Source of the DNA: Pseudomonadota bacterium
GTDB taxonomy: Bacteria; Pseudomonadota; Alphaproteobacteria; Rhizobiales; Hyphomicrobiaceae
Length of the DNA: 64,000 nucleotides
NCBI GenBank assembly: GCA_018242295.1
Contig: JAFECE010000011.1
Coordinates: 744,001 to 808,000, forward strand
Direction: 5' to 3'
In this document: positions 54,851 through 62,490 of the stretch, piece by piece
How positions within the stretch are numbered: the first letter of the stretch is position 1
How the letters are laid out: each line of letters opens with the position of its first letter
Program-made: the position numbers and the translations under genes
The notes under the pieces: model-generated
Told to the model about the DNA's origin: nothing
The model's input: the letters and a program-made list of their open reading frames with translations, nothing else
Database searches by the model: none

Positions 54851-54883
54851 CGCCCGGCCGTCGCCGGGTTCGTGCCCAGGGGA
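54834..54883 (+). promoter_or_regulatory. Attenuator-like stem structure before leuA
   Basis: CCCCTGGGC (54835-54843), within the end of the leader ORF, pairs perfectly with GCCCAGGGG (54874-54882). An inner stem CCCGGC / GCCGGG lies at 54853-54868. A competing short hairpin GGCC...GGCC at 54833-54844 is also possible. No T run follows, so the mechanism might be control of translation or a Rho-type event and not intrinsic termination. Confidence 0.5.
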
Positions 54884-54958
54884 TCAGACGGCCACCAAAT
54901 AGAGCTTGATAGCGCTCGCGGCAGACCCAAGAGTCGCCCGGCAAAGGATGAAAAAGCG

Positions 54959-56539
54959 ATGACTTCCGAAATCAAGAACGCGCCGGCAGCGCCGAAGCGC
55001 GAAGCCGACAAGATCATAATTTTTGATACAACCTTACGCGACGGCGAGCAGTGCCCCGGCGCGACGATGACGTTCGAGGAGAAGCTGCAGGTTGCCGAGC
55101 TTCTCGATGCAATGGGTGTCGACGTGATCGAGGCCGGTTTCCCGATTGCGTCGGATGGCGACTTCGAGGCGGTGACGGAGATCGCCAAACTCGCGAAGCA
55201 ATCGGTCATCTGCGGTTTGGCACGGGCGAACTTCAACGATATCGACCGCGCGGGCGAAGCGATCAAGCCAGCGAAGCGCGGCCGTATTCATACGTTCATC
55301 GGCACGTCGCCGCTGCATCGCCAGCATCAGCTGCAGCTGACGCAGGAACAGGTTTATGAGCGGGTCGTCGCGTCGGTAACGCGGGCGCGCGGCTATACCG
55401 ACGATGTCGAGTGGAGCGCGATGGACGCGACGCGCACCGAGCACGATTATCTCTGCCGGGTCGTGGAAGCGGCGATCAAGGCGGGCGCGACGACGATCAA
55501 TATTCCCGATACGGTCGGCTACGCGCTGCCGGAAGAGTATTTCGACCTCATCACGATGCTGAAGACGCGCGTCCCTGGCATGGACAAGGTCATCATCTCG
55601 ACCCACTGCCACGACGACCTGGGCCTGGCGGTCGCCAACTCGCTGGCCGGCGTTCGGGCGGGTGCGCGGCAGATCGAATGCACGATCAATGGCCTTGGCG
55701 AGCGGGCGGGCAATGCCGCGCTCGAAGAGATCGTGATGGCCATTCGCACGCGTCACGATCTGCTGCCGCACGATACGGGCATCAAGTCCGAAATGCTGTC
55801 GCGGGCATCGAGGCTCGTTTCGGCGGTGACGAACTTCCCAGTACAGTACAACAAGGCGATCGTCGGCCGGAACGCGTTTGCGCACGAGAGCGGGATTCAT
55901 CAGGACGGCGTGCTGAAGAATACCGAGACTTACGAGATCATGACGCCGGAATCCGTCGGCGTCGGAAAATCGTCGCTCGTCATGGGCAAGCATTCCGGGC
56001 GCGCGGCGTTCAAGTCCAAGCTCAAGGAGCTCGGCTACACGCTCGGCGACAACGCGATGGAGGATGCCTTCAACCGGTTCAAGGCGCTCGCCGACCGGAA
56101 GAAGCACATCTACGACGAAGACATCGAAGCGCTTGTCGACGACGGCATGGCGCACATGAACGACCGGGTGAAGGTTACGGCCTTGACCGTGATCGCCGGT
56201 ACGATGGGGCCGCAATCGGCGACGCTGACGCTTGATGTCGACGGGCAGTCAAAAACAGTGCAGAGCGCCGGCAACGGGCCGGTCGATGCAACCTTCAATG
56301 CGATCAAGCTGCTGTTCCCGCATAATGCGCGTCTCGATCTTTATCAGGTGCACGCGGTGACGGAGGGCACCGATGCGCAAGCGGAAGTTTCGGTGCGTCT
56401 CGAGGAGGATGGCCGTATAGCAACCGGCCGGGCCGCCGATCCCGATACGCTCGTCGCCTCCGCCCGGGCATTTGTCGCGGCGCTGAACAAGCTTGTCGTC
56501 AAGCGGCAGAAAACCGCCCAGGCGCAGCAGGCGGTCTAG
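54959..56539 (+). CDS. leuA: 2-isopropylmalate synthase
   Basis: 526 residues. It condenses acetyl-CoA with 2-oxoisovalerate, the first step for leucine. The catalytic core has IIIFDTTLRDGEQCPGATMT near residue 20, the VIEAGFPIASDGDFEAVTEI segment and the metal-binding STHCHDDLGLAVANSLAGVR. The C-terminal regulatory domain (ITVIAGTMGPQSATL-like LTVIAGTMGPQSATLTLDVD) binds leucine for feedback inhibition. The start at ATG 54959 follows AAAGGAT. A leucine-rich leader ORF precedes it. Confidence 0.98.
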   Translation: MTSEIKNAPAAPKREADKIIIFDTTLRDGEQCPGATMTFEEKLQVAELLDAMGVDVIEAGFPIASDGDFEAVTEIAKLAKQSVICGLARANFNDIDRAGEAIKPAKRGRIHTFIGTSPLHRQHQLQLTQEQVYERVVASVTRARGYTDDVEWSAMDATRTEHDYLCRVVEAAIKAGATTINIPDTVGYALPEEYFDLITMLKTRVPGMDKVIISTHCHDDLGLAVANSLAGVRAGARQIECTINGLGERAGNAALEEIVMAIRTRHDLLPHDTGIKSEMLSRASRLVSAVTNFPVQYNKAIVGRNAFAHESGIHQDGVLKNTETYEIMTPESVGVGKSSLVMGKHSGRAAFKSKLKELGYTLGDNAMEDAFNRFKALADRKKHIYDEDIEALVDDGMAHMNDRVKVTALTVIAGTMGPQSATLTLDVDGQSKTVQSAGNGPVDATFNAIKLLFPHNARLDLYQVHAVTEGTDAQAEVSVRLEEDGRIATGRAADPDTLVASARAFVAALNKLVVKRQKTAQAQQAV

Positions 56540-56741
56540 AAGAATAGAACGAGTTTTCGCTTAATTTGGCGGGGTGGCGTGCGGGAGCACTGTGCGCTAC
56601 CCGCGTCCATCTGGCGGAATATGGAAAGGGGCAGCCGTAAGTTAACATTCGCGCGGAAGCCTTGCTTTGGACGTGGCGGCATTCTTGTATAACGCCGTCC
56701 GCTTTATTAGCTCGGCGGCAGAGAGTAGGCCAGGTTCGCGA

Positions 56742-57782
56742 ATGTTCGGTTTAGGCTTCAGCAACGTCCTCTCCGACAACATTGCTATCGATCTCGGCAC
56801 CGCGAACACGCTCGTTTACGTGGAGGGGCGGGGCGTCATCATCAATGAGCCGTCGGTCGTCGCCATTCGGTCGCGCGGCGGTGTCCGCGATGTTCTGGCC
56901 GTCGGCGAGAAAGCAAAGCAGATGCTCGGCCGGACACCGGAAAGCATCGAGACAATCCGGCCGCTCAGAGACGGCGTGATTGCCGATTTCATCGCCACGG
57001 AAGAAATGCTGCGCCAGTTCATCGGCCGCACGAAATCGCTCATCGAATTCATTCGTCCGCGGATCTTGGTTTGCGTGCCGGCCGGTGCGACGCCGGTGGA
57101 GCGGCGCGCGGTTTACGAGACGGCGCTGTCAGCCGGTGCGCGCAAAGTGTTTCTCGTCGAGGAGCCGGTGGCGGCCGCGATCGGAGCCGGGTTGCCGATC
57201 GACGAGCCCAAGGGATCGATGGTCGTCGATATCGGCGGCGGGACGACGGATGTTGCGGTTCTGTCGCTTGGCGGCGTGGTGCAGGCGCGCTCGATCCGCT
57301 GCGGCGGCAATGCGATGGATGACGCCATCGTCCGTTACGTCCGGCGCAAGCACCAGCTGGTGATCGGCGAGGCGAATGCCGAACGCATCAAGATCGAGGC
57401 TGGATCGGCGTCGCGCATCATTAACGGCGAAACGGCGGAAATCGTCATTCGCGGCCGGGAGATGAAGGAAGGCAAGGCGAAGACGGTCGTTCTTGGACCG
57501 CACGATATTGCAGAGGCGCTCGAAGGAACCGTCGAGCAGATCGCGGAATTCATTCAGCATACGATCGAGGATCTGCCGCCGGAGATTTCGACGGATATCT
57601 GCGAGCGCGGCATTTATCTTTCTGGCGGCGGCGCGAAGCTGACGAAACTCGACGAGGAGCTCGAACGCAGGGTCGGCGTCAAAATTCATTTACCCGAAGT
57701 TCCGGAGCAATGCGTCATTACGGGAACAGCGGCAATACTGCGAACGCTCAAAGAGCGTGAGCATCTTTTGATCAGACCCTGA
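56742..57782 (+). CDS. mreB: Rod shape-determining protein MreB
   Basis: 346 residues of bacterial actin. MFGLGFSNVLSDNIAIDLGT followed by ANTLVYVEGRGVIINEPSVV is the phosphate 1 region; later GSMVVDIGGGTTDVAVLSLG and the final IYLSGGGAKLTKLDEELERR are the nucleotide-binding parts. Filaments on the inner membrane guide the elongation complex. ATG 56742 is the family start; the open frame begins upstream at 56667. First gene of the mre operon. Confidence 0.98.
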   Translation: MFGLGFSNVLSDNIAIDLGTANTLVYVEGRGVIINEPSVVAIRSRGGVRDVLAVGEKAKQMLGRTPESIETIRPLRDGVIADFIATEEMLRQFIGRTKSLIEFIRPRILVCVPAGATPVERRAVYETALSAGARKVFLVEEPVAAAIGAGLPIDEPKGSMVVDIGGGTTDVAVLSLGGVVQARSIRCGGNAMDDAIVRYVRRKHQLVIGEANAERIKIEAGSASRIINGETAEIVIRGREMKEGKAKTVVLGPHDIAEALEGTVEQIAEFIQHTIEDLPPEISTDICERGIYLSGGGAKLTKLDEELERRVGVKIHLPEVPEQCVITGTAAILRTLKEREHLLIRP

Positions 57783-57823: not shown

Positions 57824-58774
57824 ATGACGCGGCTCAAGGATCATAATCTCTTTCTTCGGCGCACGGATGGTGTGGCGCCGGGAAAGCGCATGCGTCCGGT
57901 GCTGTTGCTACTGGTATTCGCGGCATCCGGTTTGCTGCTTCTCAGCCGTCTCGATCATAGCATGCTGGGCGATGTGCGATGGCGCGCCGCTTCGTGGCTG
58001 ACGCCGGTATTGCAGGGTGCGATGATCCCGGCTCAGCCCGTCCGCGAGATCGGGCGATCGATATCGACGCAAGTTGACCTTGGGAACGAACTCGAGCGGC
58101 TCAGGCAGGAAAATCAAAAGCTCGAAAGCTGGAAGTGGCGGGCACAACAACTCGAAGGGAAGGTTGCTGATCTCGAAGCGCTCGCAAAGGTCGTGCCCGA
58201 GCAGAAGCTCGATTTCGTCACGAGCCGCGTCATCTCGGATGCAAGCGGCGCGTTCGTGCGCAGCGTAACGATCGATGCCGGACGCGGGCGAAACGTGAAA
58301 GAGGGCTATCCCGTCGTCAACGCCGACGGGCTTGTCGGCAGGATCGTCGATGTTGCCCCGGATGCGGCGCGCGTGCTGCTTGCGACCGATCTCAACAGCC
58401 GGATTCCCGTTCGGATTGGGCCCAATGCCGTGCGCGGAATTCTTGCGGGGGACAACAGCTCGCGTCCGAAGCTGATCTACATTCCGGACGACGCCAATAT
58501 CGCCATCGGCGACGATGTGGCGACGTCGGGCACGGGTGGGGTCTTTCCAGCTGGGCTTCGTCTCGGCGCCGTTGCGGGCAGCCTCTCGGAGCCGCGCGTT
58601 GCGTTGCGCGCCGATCTCGACCGGCTGGATTACGTAAGCGTGCTTTTTTTCGCCGATCCGTTTCACGATCTCACCGACGAGCTTTCGAACCGGAAAACTG
58701 CGGGAGAGGTGAACAACACCGCTTCGCCGCCTAATGCTTCGCTTGGCAATGCTTCGCCGGGGAAAGCCAAATGA
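57824..58774 (+). CDS. mreC: Rod shape-determining protein MreC
   Basis: 316 residues: a cytosolic start, one membrane helix (PVLLLLVFAASGLLLLSRLD), a coiled coil (ELERLRQENQKLESWKWRAQ) and the periplasmic beta domain (VTSRVISDASGAFVRSVTID, GVFPAGLRLGAVAG). It links MreB and MreD to PBP2. It lies 41 bases after mreB, and its stop overlaps the mreD start by four bases. A low-complexity Ala/Asn/Ser tail ends the protein. Confidence 0.96.
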   Translation: MTRLKDHNLFLRRTDGVAPGKRMRPVLLLLVFAASGLLLLSRLDHSMLGDVRWRAASWLTPVLQGAMIPAQPVREIGRSISTQVDLGNELERLRQENQKLESWKWRAQQLEGKVADLEALAKVVPEQKLDFVTSRVISDASGAFVRSVTIDAGRGRNVKEGYPVVNADGLVGRIVDVAPDAARVLLATDLNSRIPVRIGPNAVRGILAGDNSSRPKLIYIPDDANIAIGDDVATSGTGGVFPAGLRLGAVAGSLSEPRVALRADLDRLDYVSVLFFADPFHDLTDELSNRKTAGEVNNTASPPNASLGNASPGKAK

Positions 58775-59286
58775 GGTCGCTCCGCCTATTGATGCCGATC
58801 ATTTCCGTCGCGGTACTGACACTCGCGGCGGCGCTGCCGTGGGGCTTGGCGGCGGAAGATCGTTTCGTGTTGCCGCTCTTGCCGGTGATCGCGATCTATC
58901 AATGGACGCTCGACCCCGATGCGTGGCTGCCGGAGTGGGCGATCTTCATCGCGGGCCTGACGCTCGATGTGCTGACGCAAGGCCCTCTCGGCTATTGGGT
59001 GCTCGTCTATTTGTTCACGTACATCGTCGCGCTCTTCGCATCGCGCGCGCGGACAGAGACCGCCGCTGGCAGAATGGCGCTGCTTGCCGCCGCGATCGTC
59101 GCGGTGACGGGCTTTTCGTGGATGCTGGCGTCGCTCTATTTTCTGCAGCTGCTTGACTGGCAGCCCTATGCGCGGAGCACCCTGATCACCATAGTTGCCG
59201 CCATCGTGCTCGTGCCGTTGCTCGGCGTTCTCCGCTTCCGGTCTAGATCGGCCCGGGGCATCCGTCTGACGCGAGGCAGCGGATGA
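58771..59286 (+). CDS. mreD: Rod shape-determining protein MreD
   Basis: 171 residues with five to six membrane helices (LLMPIISVAVLTLAAALPWG, FVLPLLPVIAIYQWTLDPDA, FIAGLTLDVLTQGPLGYWVL). This matches MreD size and layout; a DxxxxGPLG motif is visible. It overlaps mreC and mrdA by four bases at each end (ATGA). Confidence 0.92.
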   Translation: MRSLRLLMPIISVAVLTLAAALPWGLAAEDRFVLPLLPVIAIYQWTLDPDAWLPEWAIFIAGLTLDVLTQGPLGYWVLVYLFTYIVALFASRARTETAAGRMALLAAAIVAVTGFSWMLASLYFLQLLDWQPYARSTLITIVAAIVLVPLLGVLRFRSRSARGIRLTRGSG

Positions 59287-61085
59287 CGGATGTGTTGGAT
59301 GGGGACGAGCGCGGGCGAGGGGATCAGTTTACGCGGCGAAGCTTGCTGCTCGGCGGTGTGCAGGCGGCGGGTTTAGGCCTTGTCGGCTGGCGGGTATTCG
59401 ATCTGCAGGTGATCGGTGCGCGCCGCTATGGGCCACTTGCCGAAGATAACCGCATCAATCTGCAGGTGCTGGCGCCGAAGCGGGGACGCATTTTCGATGC
59501 TTACGGCCGCCTGCTCGCTGACAACGAGCAGGTCTTTCGGGTCATGATTACACCGGGTCTTGCAAAGAATCCCAGCGGCGTGCTTCGGCGCGTCAGCCGC
59601 ATCGTGCCGCTGTCGGACGACGAGATCGCGAAGATCGTCGCGCGGGCGCGCAAGCAGGGACGCTACGTTCCGACGACGATCGCTTCCGACTTGAGCTTCG
59701 AACAGGTAGCGCAGCTCAATCTCTTCGCGCCGAGCCTCCCCGGCATCGCCACGGATTTCGCGCTGCGCCGCCGATATCACGATGGACCTGCACTCAGTCA
59801 TGTCGTCGGCTACGTCGGAAGCGTCGAACGGTTCGCCATCAATGACGACGCGGTCGCAAGACTTCCTGAAATGCGTATCGGCAAGGGCGGCGCCGAACTC
59901 GGATTCGACGGCGAGCTGCGCGGCACGGGCGGCATTCAGAAGGTCGAAGTCGATGCGCGCGGACGTATCATCCGCAATCTTGAAACGGTCGAGCCGGTTG
60001 GGGGCCGGGACGTGACGCTCACGGTCGATTCCGAGCTGCAGCGGCTCGTCTCGGACCGGATGCAACGGGAAGGCCGCGCAGCGGCGGTGATGCTGGACAT
60101 TGCGACCGGTGGCATCGTCGTCATGGCATCGGTTCCGGGTTTCGATGCGGGCGCGATTGCGGGCGGCATCGCGGGCGCGGACTGGCAGAAGCTCGTGCAG
60201 TCGGAAGACAAGCCGCTGCTCAATCGCGCGATCGCCGGACAATATGCGCCGGGATCGGCGTTCATGGTTGTGACGGCGCTTGCAGGTCTCGATGCCGGCG
60301 TTCTTTCGCAGGGCGAACGCATTCAATGCGATGGGCACTATGCGTATCGCGGCGAAGTCTACCGTTGCTCGAAGCACGACGGTCACGGGAGCCTGTCGGT
60401 GCACGAGGCGATCCGATCGTCTTGCGAAGTGTTCTTCTGCGAGGTGGCGAGCCGTTTGGGGATCACACGGATCGCGGCGGCGGCTCGCGCGATGGGGCTC
60501 GGTGGGACGTCGAACGTCGGGCTCGGCGAAGAGAAGGCCGGGCTGGTTCCGGATCCGGATTGGAAGCGCGGCAATCTCAATGCGTCGTGGCTCGGCGGCG
60601 AGACGCTGCTGACGGGCCTCGGGCAAGGCTACATGCAGGCGACGCCGTTGCAACTCGCGGTGATGGCGGCTCGCATCGCCAGCGGACGGGCTGTCGTTCC
60701 GGTCGTCGGGAAGCGCGCGGGCGCTCCGGAATTTCAGCGGTTGCCATTCGGAGTAGAGAGTTTCGACGCCATTCGTAAAGGCATGGCCGCCGTCGTCAAC
60801 GACGAGAACGGAAGCGCCAACGAGGCCAAGCTCGGCGCGGGGAAACCAATGGTGGCAGGCAAGTCCGGCGGGTCGAAAGTCTTCGCCGGCTTCGAACCGG
60901 CGGAGGCGCCGCGCTATGCGATAGCGACCGTCATCGAGCGTGGCGGAGACGGCAACGCGACTGCCGCGCTGCTCGCGCGCGACATTCTCAATCTCGCCGT
61001 CGATCGCGCCGGTCCCGCCCACGGCGATATTCCCCCGGGTGGCGGCGTTGTTCCGGCGACGAACTACGGTGAGAAGGCGGGATGA
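59283..61085 (+). CDS. mrdA: Penicillin-binding protein 2 homolog with altered active site
   Basis: 600 residues with the PBP2 layout: basic N-terminus, one membrane helix (LLLGGVQAAGLGLVGWRVFD), dimerisation region (LAPKRGRIFDAYGRLLADNE), and transpeptidase domain. The catalytic box, normally S-T-F-K, reads YAPGSAFM, with Ser325 present but Lys328 replaced by Met. The second box is SCE (380-382, usual SxN or SxD), and the third is KSGG (527-530, usual KTGT). About 25-30 residues normally after KTGT are absent. The frame is otherwise intact and overlaps mreD and rodA. PBP2 normally cross-links wall strands and activates RodA; cross-linking here is doubtful. Confidence 0.93.
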   Translation: MTDVLDGDERGRGDQFTRRSLLLGGVQAAGLGLVGWRVFDLQVIGARRYGPLAEDNRINLQVLAPKRGRIFDAYGRLLADNEQVFRVMITPGLAKNPSGVLRRVSRIVPLSDDEIAKIVARARKQGRYVPTTIASDLSFEQVAQLNLFAPSLPGIATDFALRRRYHDGPALSHVVGYVGSVERFAINDDAVARLPEMRIGKGGAELGFDGELRGTGGIQKVEVDARGRIIRNLETVEPVGGRDVTLTVDSELQRLVSDRMQREGRAAAVMLDIATGGIVVMASVPGFDAGAIAGGIAGADWQKLVQSEDKPLLNRAIAGQYAPGSAFMVVTALAGLDAGVLSQGERIQCDGHYAYRGEVYRCSKHDGHGSLSVHEAIRSSCEVFFCEVASRLGITRIAAAARAMGLGGTSNVGLGEEKAGLVPDPDWKRGNLNASWLGGETLLTGLGQGYMQATPLQLAVMAARIASGRAVVPVVGKRAGAPEFQRLPFGVESFDAIRKGMAAVVNDENGSANEAKLGAGKPMVAGKSGGSKVFAGFEPAEAPRYAIATVIERGGDGNATAALLARDILNLAVDRAGPAHGDIPPGGGVVPATNYGEKAG

Positions 61086-62221
61086 TGGAAACCTTATTCG
61101 CTACGCGCAGCACCTTCGGCCGGCCGCTTCGCCTCAGCGAGAAGCTGTGGCGCATCAACTGGCCCCTCTTGCTGACAGCCTCTCTGCTGGCGGGCATCGG
61201 AACGGCGACGCTTTATTCCGTCTCCGGCGGTTCGTTTCAGCCTTGGGCCGAGCGGCATACGCTCCGCTTCCTCATCATGCTCGGCATCGTCGTCGCCATG
61301 GCGCTCGTCCGGCTGGATGTGTGGATGAGGCTCGCTTATCCCGCGTATCTCGTGGCGCTTCTGATGCTGGCGCTCGTGCCGTTCATAGGCTCGGAAGCGC
61401 TCGGCGCGAAACGGTGGATCGATGCCGGTCCAATCTCCTTTCAGCCGTCGGAGCTGATGAAACTCGCGCTCGTCGCGGCGCTGGCGCGCTTCTATTTTCA
61501 AGTGCTGCCAGAAAAAGTTGGCAAACCGCTGTTTATCTTGCTGCCGCTTCTCATCATCGGCGTGCCGGTTTTCCTGACCATGCAGCAGCCCGATCTCGGA
61601 TCGGCCGCACTGTTCGTTGCGCTGGGTTTGTCGCTGATGTTTCTCGCCGGCGTGCCGCTTCGCTACTTCGCGCTTGGCGGTTTGCTCGCCCTCGCGTCGC
61701 TGCCTGTGATCTGGTCGGGAATGCACGACTATCAGAAGCGGCGCGTCGAAGTGTTTCTCAATCCCGGCATGGATCCGCTTGGCGCGGGCTATCACATCAC
61801 GCAGTCGAAGATCGCGCTCGGAGCGGGCGGCGTTGCGGGAAAGGGGTTCATGCAGGGCACGCAGAGCCAGCTCGATTTTGTCCCTGAGAAACATACGGAC
61901 TTCATCGCGAGCATCATCGGCGAGGAGTGGGGGTTCACCGGGATGCTGTTTTTGATCGCGGTCTATGGGCTGCTCATCCTGATGATGATGCTGATGGCGC
62001 AGCGGTGCGAGAACCACTTCGCCCGGCTCGCCATCGCGGGTTCGGCAATGACCTTCTTCCTCTATGTCTTTATCAACCTGGCCATGATCACGGGGCTGGT
62101 GCCCGTCGTCGGTATTCCGCTGCCGCTCGTCTCGTATGGCGGCACATCGATGACGACGCTGATGATCGGGCTCGGGGTCGCCATGTCGGCCTATGTGCAC
62201 GGCCGGAACGGCAGGGGTTGA
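61082..62221 (+). CDS. rodA: RodA, SEDS peptidoglycan glycosyltransferase
   Basis: 379 residues, about ten membrane helices. Conserved SEDS parts are all present: AKRWIDAGPISFQPSELMKL, MQQPDLGSAALFVALGLSLM, FVPEKHTDFIASIIGEEWGF with the catalytic Asp, and GIPLPLVSYGGTSMTTLMIG. It polymerises lipid II for side-wall elongation and needs PBP2 as its activator. It overlaps mrdA by four bases and closes the operon. Confidence 0.96.
   Translation: MMETLFATRSTFGRPLRLSEKLWRINWPLLLTASLLAGIGTATLYSVSGGSFQPWAERHTLRFLIMLGIVVAMALVRLDVWMRLAYPAYLVALLMLALVPFIGSEALGAKRWIDAGPISFQPSELMKLALVAALARFYFQVLPEKVGKPLFILLPLLIIGVPVFLTMQQPDLGSAALFVALGLSLMFLAGVPLRYFALGGLLALASLPVIWSGMHDYQKRRVEVFLNPGMDPLGAGYHITQSKIALGAGGVAGKGFMQGTQSQLDFVPEKHTDFIASIIGEEWGFTGMLFLIAVYGLLILMMMLMAQRCENHFARLAIAGSAMTFFLYVFINLAMITGLVPVVGIPLPLVSYGGTSMTTLMIGLGVAMSAYVHGRNGRG

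Positions 62222-62414: not shown

Positions 62415-62490
<76 letters not shown>

Follow-up and report, generated by a model that had tools for sequence, protein, structure and literature searches.

The pedestal domain of class B penicillin-binding proteins (PBPs) activates the partner SEDS glycosyltransferase, and a catalytically inactive PBP2B of Bacillus subtilis still supports division (PMC8078798; this and the other published sources are cited from excerpts). According to the same source, engineered mutants show that certain class B PBPs are more important as SEDS activators than as transpeptidases, and active PBP2s are believed to act on RodA by a stimulating contact between the pedestal and extracellular loop 4 (ECL4). 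In the order considered here, PBP2 and MreB are said to be lacking from the Rhizobiales/Hyphomicrobiales (PMC12911857), MreB has been stated to be absent from the Hyphomicrobiaceae (PMC10259793) and a node of loss was placed within the Rhizobiales (PMC12130487). The present analysis concerns the PBP2 gene (pbp2/mrdA) on a 64,000-nucleotide stretch of a Hyphomicrobium genome (GCA_018242295.1, contig JAFECE010000011.1, positions 744,001 to 808,000), referred to below as the window; coordinates are counted from its first nucleotide and features lie on the + strand unless stated otherwise. Comparison of this gene with its relatives indicates that its product is an orthologue of the Rod-complex PBP2 (MrdA) that probably no longer acts as a D,D-transpeptidase and probably owes its retention to selection for non-catalytic work.

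Transpeptidase motifs of the PBP2 orthologue

In the serine penicilloyl transferase superfamily, the part played by the SxxK lysine is established. The gene (59283..61085) is open over 600 codons, as a first-pass annotation of the window had stated, and the protein of 600 residues scored 531.3 bits against TIGR03423 (equivalog cut-off 455). It was identified as a PBP2/MrdA orthologue by this score, by its domain order, by a gene position flanked by mreD and rodA and by a descent shared with the mre genes. Profile matches placed a PBP dimerisation/pedestal domain (PF03717) at residues 64-233 (59472..59981), which was spared by decay, and the transpeptidase (TP) domain (PF00905) at residues 267-569 (60081..60989).

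The nucleophile position of box 1, Ser325 (60255..60257), is still serine, and motif reading and codon comparison showed that the lysine is replaced by Met328, encoded by ATG at 60264..60266, so that the box reads S325-A-F-M328. Box 2 is S380-C381-E382 (60420..60428) where all 19 aligned relatives with an intact SxxK have SxD, the form found in both intact members of the genus (G006 and G009). Neither the SxxK motif nor the SxN/SxD motif of an active D,D-transpeptidase is therefore present. The third box, K527-S-G-G530 (60861..60872), retains KSG, followed by Gly and not Thr, at a place where KTGT was found in 19/19 aligned intact relatives; KTG is lost in G010. These three readings agree with those of the first-pass annotation. 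It had also reported that 25-30 residues are missing after the third box; the loss itself was borne out, while its size proved to be 21 residues. Alignment located the junction at 60881..60882, and the loop, absent altogether from the window PBP2 and five sisters, measures 21 residues in all but one of the 19 intact proteins and 22 in that one.

Distribution of the lysine loss and constraint on the gene

The host genus of the window is Hyphomicrobium, and 22 genomes of the genus formed the comparison set. A PBP2 orthologue was present in 14 of them and none was found in the other eight. The SxxK lysine was absent in 12 of the 14 PBP2-bearing genomes, its place being taken by Val (five), Leu (five), Met (one) or Glu (one), and was intact in G006 and G009 only; the 12 proteins are called dead PBP2s below. 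Genomes sharing the loss include H. facile DSM 1565 (G001), Hyphomicrobium sp. AWTP1-10 (G014) and the metagenome-assembled genome SZAS-19 (G012). In two dead PBP2s the serine of box 1 is lost as well, to Ala in G010 and Gly in G019. The first-pass annotation had asked whether the methionine and the deletion recur in sister species. The deletion does, in the five sisters mentioned above, and the methionine does not, the nearest sisters, G014 and G018, having Val codons (GTC and GTG) at this position. Since these two have Val, the lysine was lost earlier and Met was not the original replacement; it was probably derived from Val in a late change upon the older loss. The dead PBP2s of the Leu type (G007, G012, G016, G015 and G010) keep 17-21 residues after box 3; the loss of the loop is therefore later than that of the lysine.

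In the order, 397 genomes were sampled, and 37 of them have a PBP2 match at E <= 1e-60. The boxes were read in 70 rows of the genus, family and order, representing 69 genomes because G226 was entered as two pieces, one of them without box 1. Twelve rows, all Hyphomicrobium, were dead, 57 had SxxK and one was the piece lacking box 1. A PBP2 match was present in 353 of the 385 genomes sampled from the class, and SxxK was read in 60/60 of the proteins inspected, comprising 30 top-scoring matches and 30 low-scoring ones picked by hand by E-value, not strictly the lowest, some of which scored below the window protein; in four, box 3 lay beyond the frame read. Among 80 named loci, SxxK was present in 77 and the remaining three were G001, G014 and G012. 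The order, family, class and named-locus sets partly overlap (for example, L086 is G119). No instance of the same lesion was found outside the Hyphomicrobium clade in the order, family and class samples read, and within all the material covered the lysine loss is confined to one clade. A separate irregularity was seen by eye in the PBP2 of G174 (L371, from 4822), which has intact boxes and an unrelated-looking stretch before KTG, as from two compensating frameshifts in the gene or the assembly.

Column counts were made on the 19 intact PBP2s; the PBP2 alignments do not include G108, in which a contig break at box 1 divides the gene between two contigs, and another 10 PBP2s from the family and 28 from the order served for motif reading only. 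Of 106 columns invariant in the 19 intact proteins, 3/31 in residues 1-230 and 34/75 in residues 231-600 were changed in at least one dead PBP2 (Fisher p 0.0003), and within the TP domain 17/26 columns near the boxes had changed against 17/49 elsewhere (p 0.015), both p values being indicative only as the rows are related by descent. As a control, 83 TP columns that do not vary among 17 outgroup enzymes were compared, with five changes each in the intact G006 and G009 and 16-26 in each dead PBP2; for 32 columns of the N-terminal part the figures were 0-1 in the intact Hyphomicrobium PBP2s and 0-2 in the dead ones. Altered in all 12 dead PBP2s were K328, W363, T530, Q532 and P563, and an Asp of the loop was changed or lost. 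Position 363, adjoining Cys362 (codons of both at 60366..60371), is Trp in 19/19 intact and Ser in 12/12 dead proteins. Asp382 was replaced in ten of the twelve, and the fourth position of box 3 holds G, A, V, S, L or E.

Other residues of the protein were retained. Ser325 was kept in 10/12 dead PBP2s, K527 in 11/12 (lost in G010) and S380 and C381 in 12/12, while R18-R19, C349, C362, H368, S380 and C381 were found in 31/31 aligned PBP2s. The pair R18-R19 (59334..59339), a putative Tat-type signal by its motif, is reminiscent of the Tat signal described for PBP2 of Alphaproteobacteria (PMC12911857). Cys349 (60327..60329), which is invariant in 42 aligned PBP2s and matches Asp350 of the Acinetobacter baumannii enzyme by numbering offset, Cys362 and His368 (60384..60386) are putative zinc ligands, and C381 of box 2 would complete a Cys3His site with them. 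In A. baumannii, PBP2 binds zinc through Asp350, Asp365, His371 and Cys384; mutants of these ligands still bind bocillin, and disruption of the site led to loss of the rod shape (PMC9974482).

Selection was estimated as dN/dS by the Nei-Gojobori method. Closer pairs were chosen for pooling since some dS values were saturated, and three dead and two intact pairs were pooled. The dead pairs gave 0.081 (95% interval 0.057-0.113) for the N-terminal part (residues 1-230), 0.121 (0.092-0.155) for the TP domain and 0.052 (0.035-0.072) for RodA; the corresponding values for the intact pairs were 0.146 (0.104-0.198), 0.095 (0.072-0.130) and 0.090 (0.066-0.121). Individually, seven dead pairs, which share genomes and are not independent, ranged over 0.059-0.137 for the N-terminal part and 0.106-0.162 for the TP domain, and five intact pairs over 0.108-0.290 and 0.066-0.254. 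Relative to RodA, the ratio for the N-terminal part was 1.6 in dead and intact pairs, and the last 40 residues were looser in both kinds of pair alike. In a neutral simulation with substitutions only, 5/1000 frames stayed open at 0.15 substitutions per site and 0/1000 at 0.3. The gene is thus constrained throughout, with a TP domain relaxed about twofold relative to RodA. Loss of catalytic residues across a clade combined with purifying selection on the amino-acid sequence is the pattern of a pseudoenzyme, and the earlier proposal that the protein is kept was upheld, its N-terminal part being spared.

The mre locus, RodA and candidate cross-linking enzymes

The cluster is intact in the window, with the order leuA-mreB-mreC-mreD-pbp2-rodA. 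Upstream lies leuA (2-isopropylmalate synthase, 54872..56539; TIGR00973, 697.5 bits, cut-off 598.7), followed by mreB (56667..57782; NCBIfam MreB NF010539, 437 bits), mreC (57824..58774; Pfam PF04085), mreD (58771..59286; Pfam PF04093) and, beyond pbp2, the SEDS glycosyltransferase gene rodA (61082..62221; TIGR02210, 384.3 bits, cut-off 336.7). The overlaps of pbp2 with mreD and rodA noted in the first-pass annotation measure four bases each, from the mreD end at 59286 and the rodA start at 61082. Located 3' of rodA are tRNA-Lys(CTT) (62415-62490, +) and then a gene of the phage-integrase family (PF00589; 62552-63604, - strand), an arrangement that resembles the end of an integrated element.

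RodA keeps the sequence VPEKHTDF, as had been claimed, starting at RodA residue 267. Its Asp273 (61898..61900), taken as the equivalent of Escherichia coli Asp262, was kept in 32/32 RodAs. Twenty comparison RodAs were used, 19 encoded beside intact-SxxK PBP2s and that of G108, whose PBP2 box was unread, and only 3 of the 76 columns invariant among them change in a lineage with a dead PBP2. Because the invariant columns are mostly kept, the Asp of TDF is universal in the set and Asp262 of E. coli RodA is reported as required for activity (PMC10449877), RodA looks active.

Six PF00905 matches were found in the window's own genome. One of them is the PBP2 described here. Another is a class B protein of 615 residues that has no transglycosylase domain and is called FtsI-like because ftsW lies nearby, and the remaining four are class A proteins, which combine transglycosylase and transpeptidase domains. 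None of the six is a further PBP2, so the possibility of a second copy, also raised in the first-pass annotation, was rejected. In a motif scan the five other proteins all keep SxxK, SxN and KTG boxes, which fits the earlier idea that cross-linking is done elsewhere. Compensation by extra L,D-transpeptidases was considered and rejected. There are 18 YkuD matches in this genome and 16-18 in 11 of the 12 genomes with a dead PBP2 (nine in G015, which is 85% complete), compared with 23 and 14 in the two intact genomes and 10-20 in the eight without PBP2. Extra class A PBPs were rejected likewise, PF00905 matches numbering six in 12/12 dead genomes (one a piece, in G012), five and six in the intact ones (two of the six in G009 being pieces) and 4-5 where PBP2 was lacking.

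The occurrence of the cluster in the genus was followed with leuA as site marker, which was found in 22/22 genomes (in pieces in G004 and G012) and adjoins mreB in the genus loci with mreB; mreC and mreD were looked for at the locus only. A RodA orthologue (63-100% identity) was present in exactly the same 14 genomes as PBP2, the other eight having a SEDS match only at about 30%, which was taken for FtsW, and MreB (78-100% identity) was found in 18/22. The genus data thus show that absence of PBP2 and MreB is not general. In G008 and G017, both single contigs, leuA is present with no mre gene in the following 12 kb. In G011 (L303) and G021 (L302), leuA-mreB is followed by no mreC, mreD, pbp2 or rodA within 9 kb, and no RodA or PBP2 orthologue was found genome-wide; an intact MreB is left there without its usual wall-synthesis partners. 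The contigs of G002 (L306), G004 (L170), G005 (L308) and G013 (L307) end inside or beside the mre site, where absence of the cluster is less certain.

A species tree was inferred from nine dcw proteins and leuA by a quick search under LG+G4, with G004 omitted for lack of data and G009 and ten outgroups placed by leuA only. It contained a 14-species clade (SH-aLRT 100) consisting of the 12 dead-PBP2 species with G008 and G017, in which G019, the most decayed, was placed as sister to the others (support 99). The tree of PBP2 residues 1-230 also put the 12 dead proteins in one clade (SH-aLRT 91), with G009 and G006 outside. On the simplest reading, the lysine would have been lost once in the ancestor of the 14 species, the pseudo-enzyme persisting in 12 and the other two, G008 and G017, then losing the whole mre cluster; this fits the earlier suggestion that the elongasome may be caught here partway to being lost. 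The losses in G011 and G021, and those in G002, G005 and G013 if real, are separate events on the species tree. The genus data suggest that Rod losses were repeated and staged.

Alternative explanations and relation to described PBPs

Several explanations could account for an open gene with a ruined active site. An artefact of sequencing, assembly or annotation is barely conceivable, and sequencing error, a frameshift or a local pseudogene was ruled out, since twelve genomes, including H. facile DSM 1565, share the loss of the lysine and do so by different codons. The first-pass annotation had named relatives with a normal SxxK beside a broken copy here as an outcome that would overturn it; instead the loss is shared and the frame is open. 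The gene might alternatively have lost all function and be decaying slowly, its frame staying open only through translational coupling to mreD and rodA. The short overlaps on both sides, the deeper decay in G010 and G019, the relaxed TP domain and the disappearance of the entire cluster from G008 and G017 all agree with such passive decay, but coupling demands an open frame and not a conserved protein. The pooled dN/dS values of both parts of the dead gene, the untouched R18-R19 pair and Cys3His site in 12/12 proteins and the mere 3/31 changed columns of the N-terminal part make this explanation unlikely.

Two further possibilities assign a task to what remains of the active site. The TP domain may have become a binding or sensing module for peptide stems, muropeptides or beta-lactams, with Ser325 and K527 serving for ligand contact. 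The near-general retention of these two residues, the invariance of S380 and C381 and the constraint still acting on the domain would be expected of such a module, which is nevertheless quite improbable given that Ser325 is lost in G010 and G019, K527 in G010, and that the fourth residue of box 3 is variable. That the protein is still an active transpeptidase using another general base is more doubtful yet. It would draw on the same Ser325 and K527, but the lysine position holds M, V, L or E, the serine itself is gone in two members, and Trp363 and Thr530 are replaced in all twelve and Asp382 in ten.

Selection for a non-catalytic role of the orthologue remains the preferred explanation, and the most likely form of that role is a pseudo-transpeptidase acting as RodA activator or scaffold, representing a stage on the way to losing the Rod system. 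Several observations weigh against it. The boxes have decayed further in G010 and G019 than in the other dead PBP2s. The dN/dS of the TP domain exceeded that of the N-terminal part in 7/7 dead pairs compared with 2/5 intact pairs and, relative to RodA, was 2.3 in dead and 1.1 in intact pairs, a relaxation of about twofold. In the tree of mreBCD and rodA the 12 species did not form one clade, as G004, where PBP2 lies past the contig end, was sister to G019, although a constraint holding the 12 together was not rejected (AU p 0.32). G008 and G017, nested in the clade, live without the Rod complex, so the function is not indispensable in the lineage. Neither class A PBPs nor L,D-transpeptidases are expanded in the dead clade, and the counts indicate no specific replacement enzyme. 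Finally, normal growth and shape in Caulobacter depend on the transpeptidase function of PBP2 (PMC12911857), and its loss here would therefore need a changed cell-wall economy.

If the protein is a RodA activator or scaffold, the following mechanism may be proposed. The dead PBP2 would be unable to transpeptidate, yet would be exported and folded, with the TP domain serving as a folded body, and would bind MreC and RodA. Its pedestal would switch RodA on via ECL4, as has been described for active PBP2s; this pedestal and the membrane anchor make up the spared part of the protein. Glycan strands made by RodA would then be cross-linked by class A PBPs, L,D-transpeptidases or both. The balance tips slightly towards a fuller version of this scheme, a naturally uncoupled elongasome in which RodA polymerises under MreBCD and the pseudo-PBP2, cross-linking is left wholly to other enzymes, and the genus displays a staged dismantling of the Rod system from active PBP2, through pseudo-PBP2 and MreB without RodA and PBP2, to nothing. 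If true, the route of Rod loss in the Hyphomicrobiales would have run through transpeptidase activity first and the scaffold later.

The finding is relevant to how the Rod system was lost in the Hyphomicrobiales. A natural, clade-wide pseudo-PBP2 would amount to evolution's own separation of activation and catalysis in the elongation machine, and would allow one to ask what the TP domain does beyond catalysis. The dead PBP2 would also predict an elongation step insensitive to PBP2-directed beta-lactams. As the TIGR03423 equivalog cut-off is passed, automatic annotation would call the protein an active enzyme.

A natural pseudo-PBP2, or an mre cluster with a dead PBP2 in Hyphomicrobium, was not found reported in the open-licence papers searched, which is weak evidence of absence. 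The window protein resembles PBP2/MrdA as defined by TIGR03423 in profile score, domain order, neighbours, descent, the twin-arginine pair and the zinc-type site, and differs in having no SxxK lysine, SxE as box 2, no Thr530, a replaced Trp363 and no 21-residue loop. By residue-number offset, the proteins being unaligned, C349, C362, H368 and C381 correspond to Asp350, Asp365, His371 and Cys384 of the A. baumannii zinc PBP2, whose ligands are however Asp2HisCys in a catalytic enzyme, whereas the site here is a putative Cys3His. The SpoVD S311A variant of Clostridioides difficile is likewise an inactive class B PBP; it still sustains asymmetric division in part and depends on its SEDS partner, SpoVE, for this, but it is engineered and sporulation-specific, and heat-resistant spores fail to form (PMC12713402). 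Inactivated B. subtilis PBP2B and Staphylococcus aureus PBP1 come close in that transpeptidase activity is dispensable and the protein is needed, which was explained by SEDS activation; these are engineered division enzymes, with PBP3 as back-up in B. subtilis, in contrast to the natural and clade-wide change in an elongation enzyme considered here (PMC8078798). That engineered inactive class B PBPs can support a SEDS partner was thus already known, and what appears to be new is that the inactivation is natural and extends across a clade.

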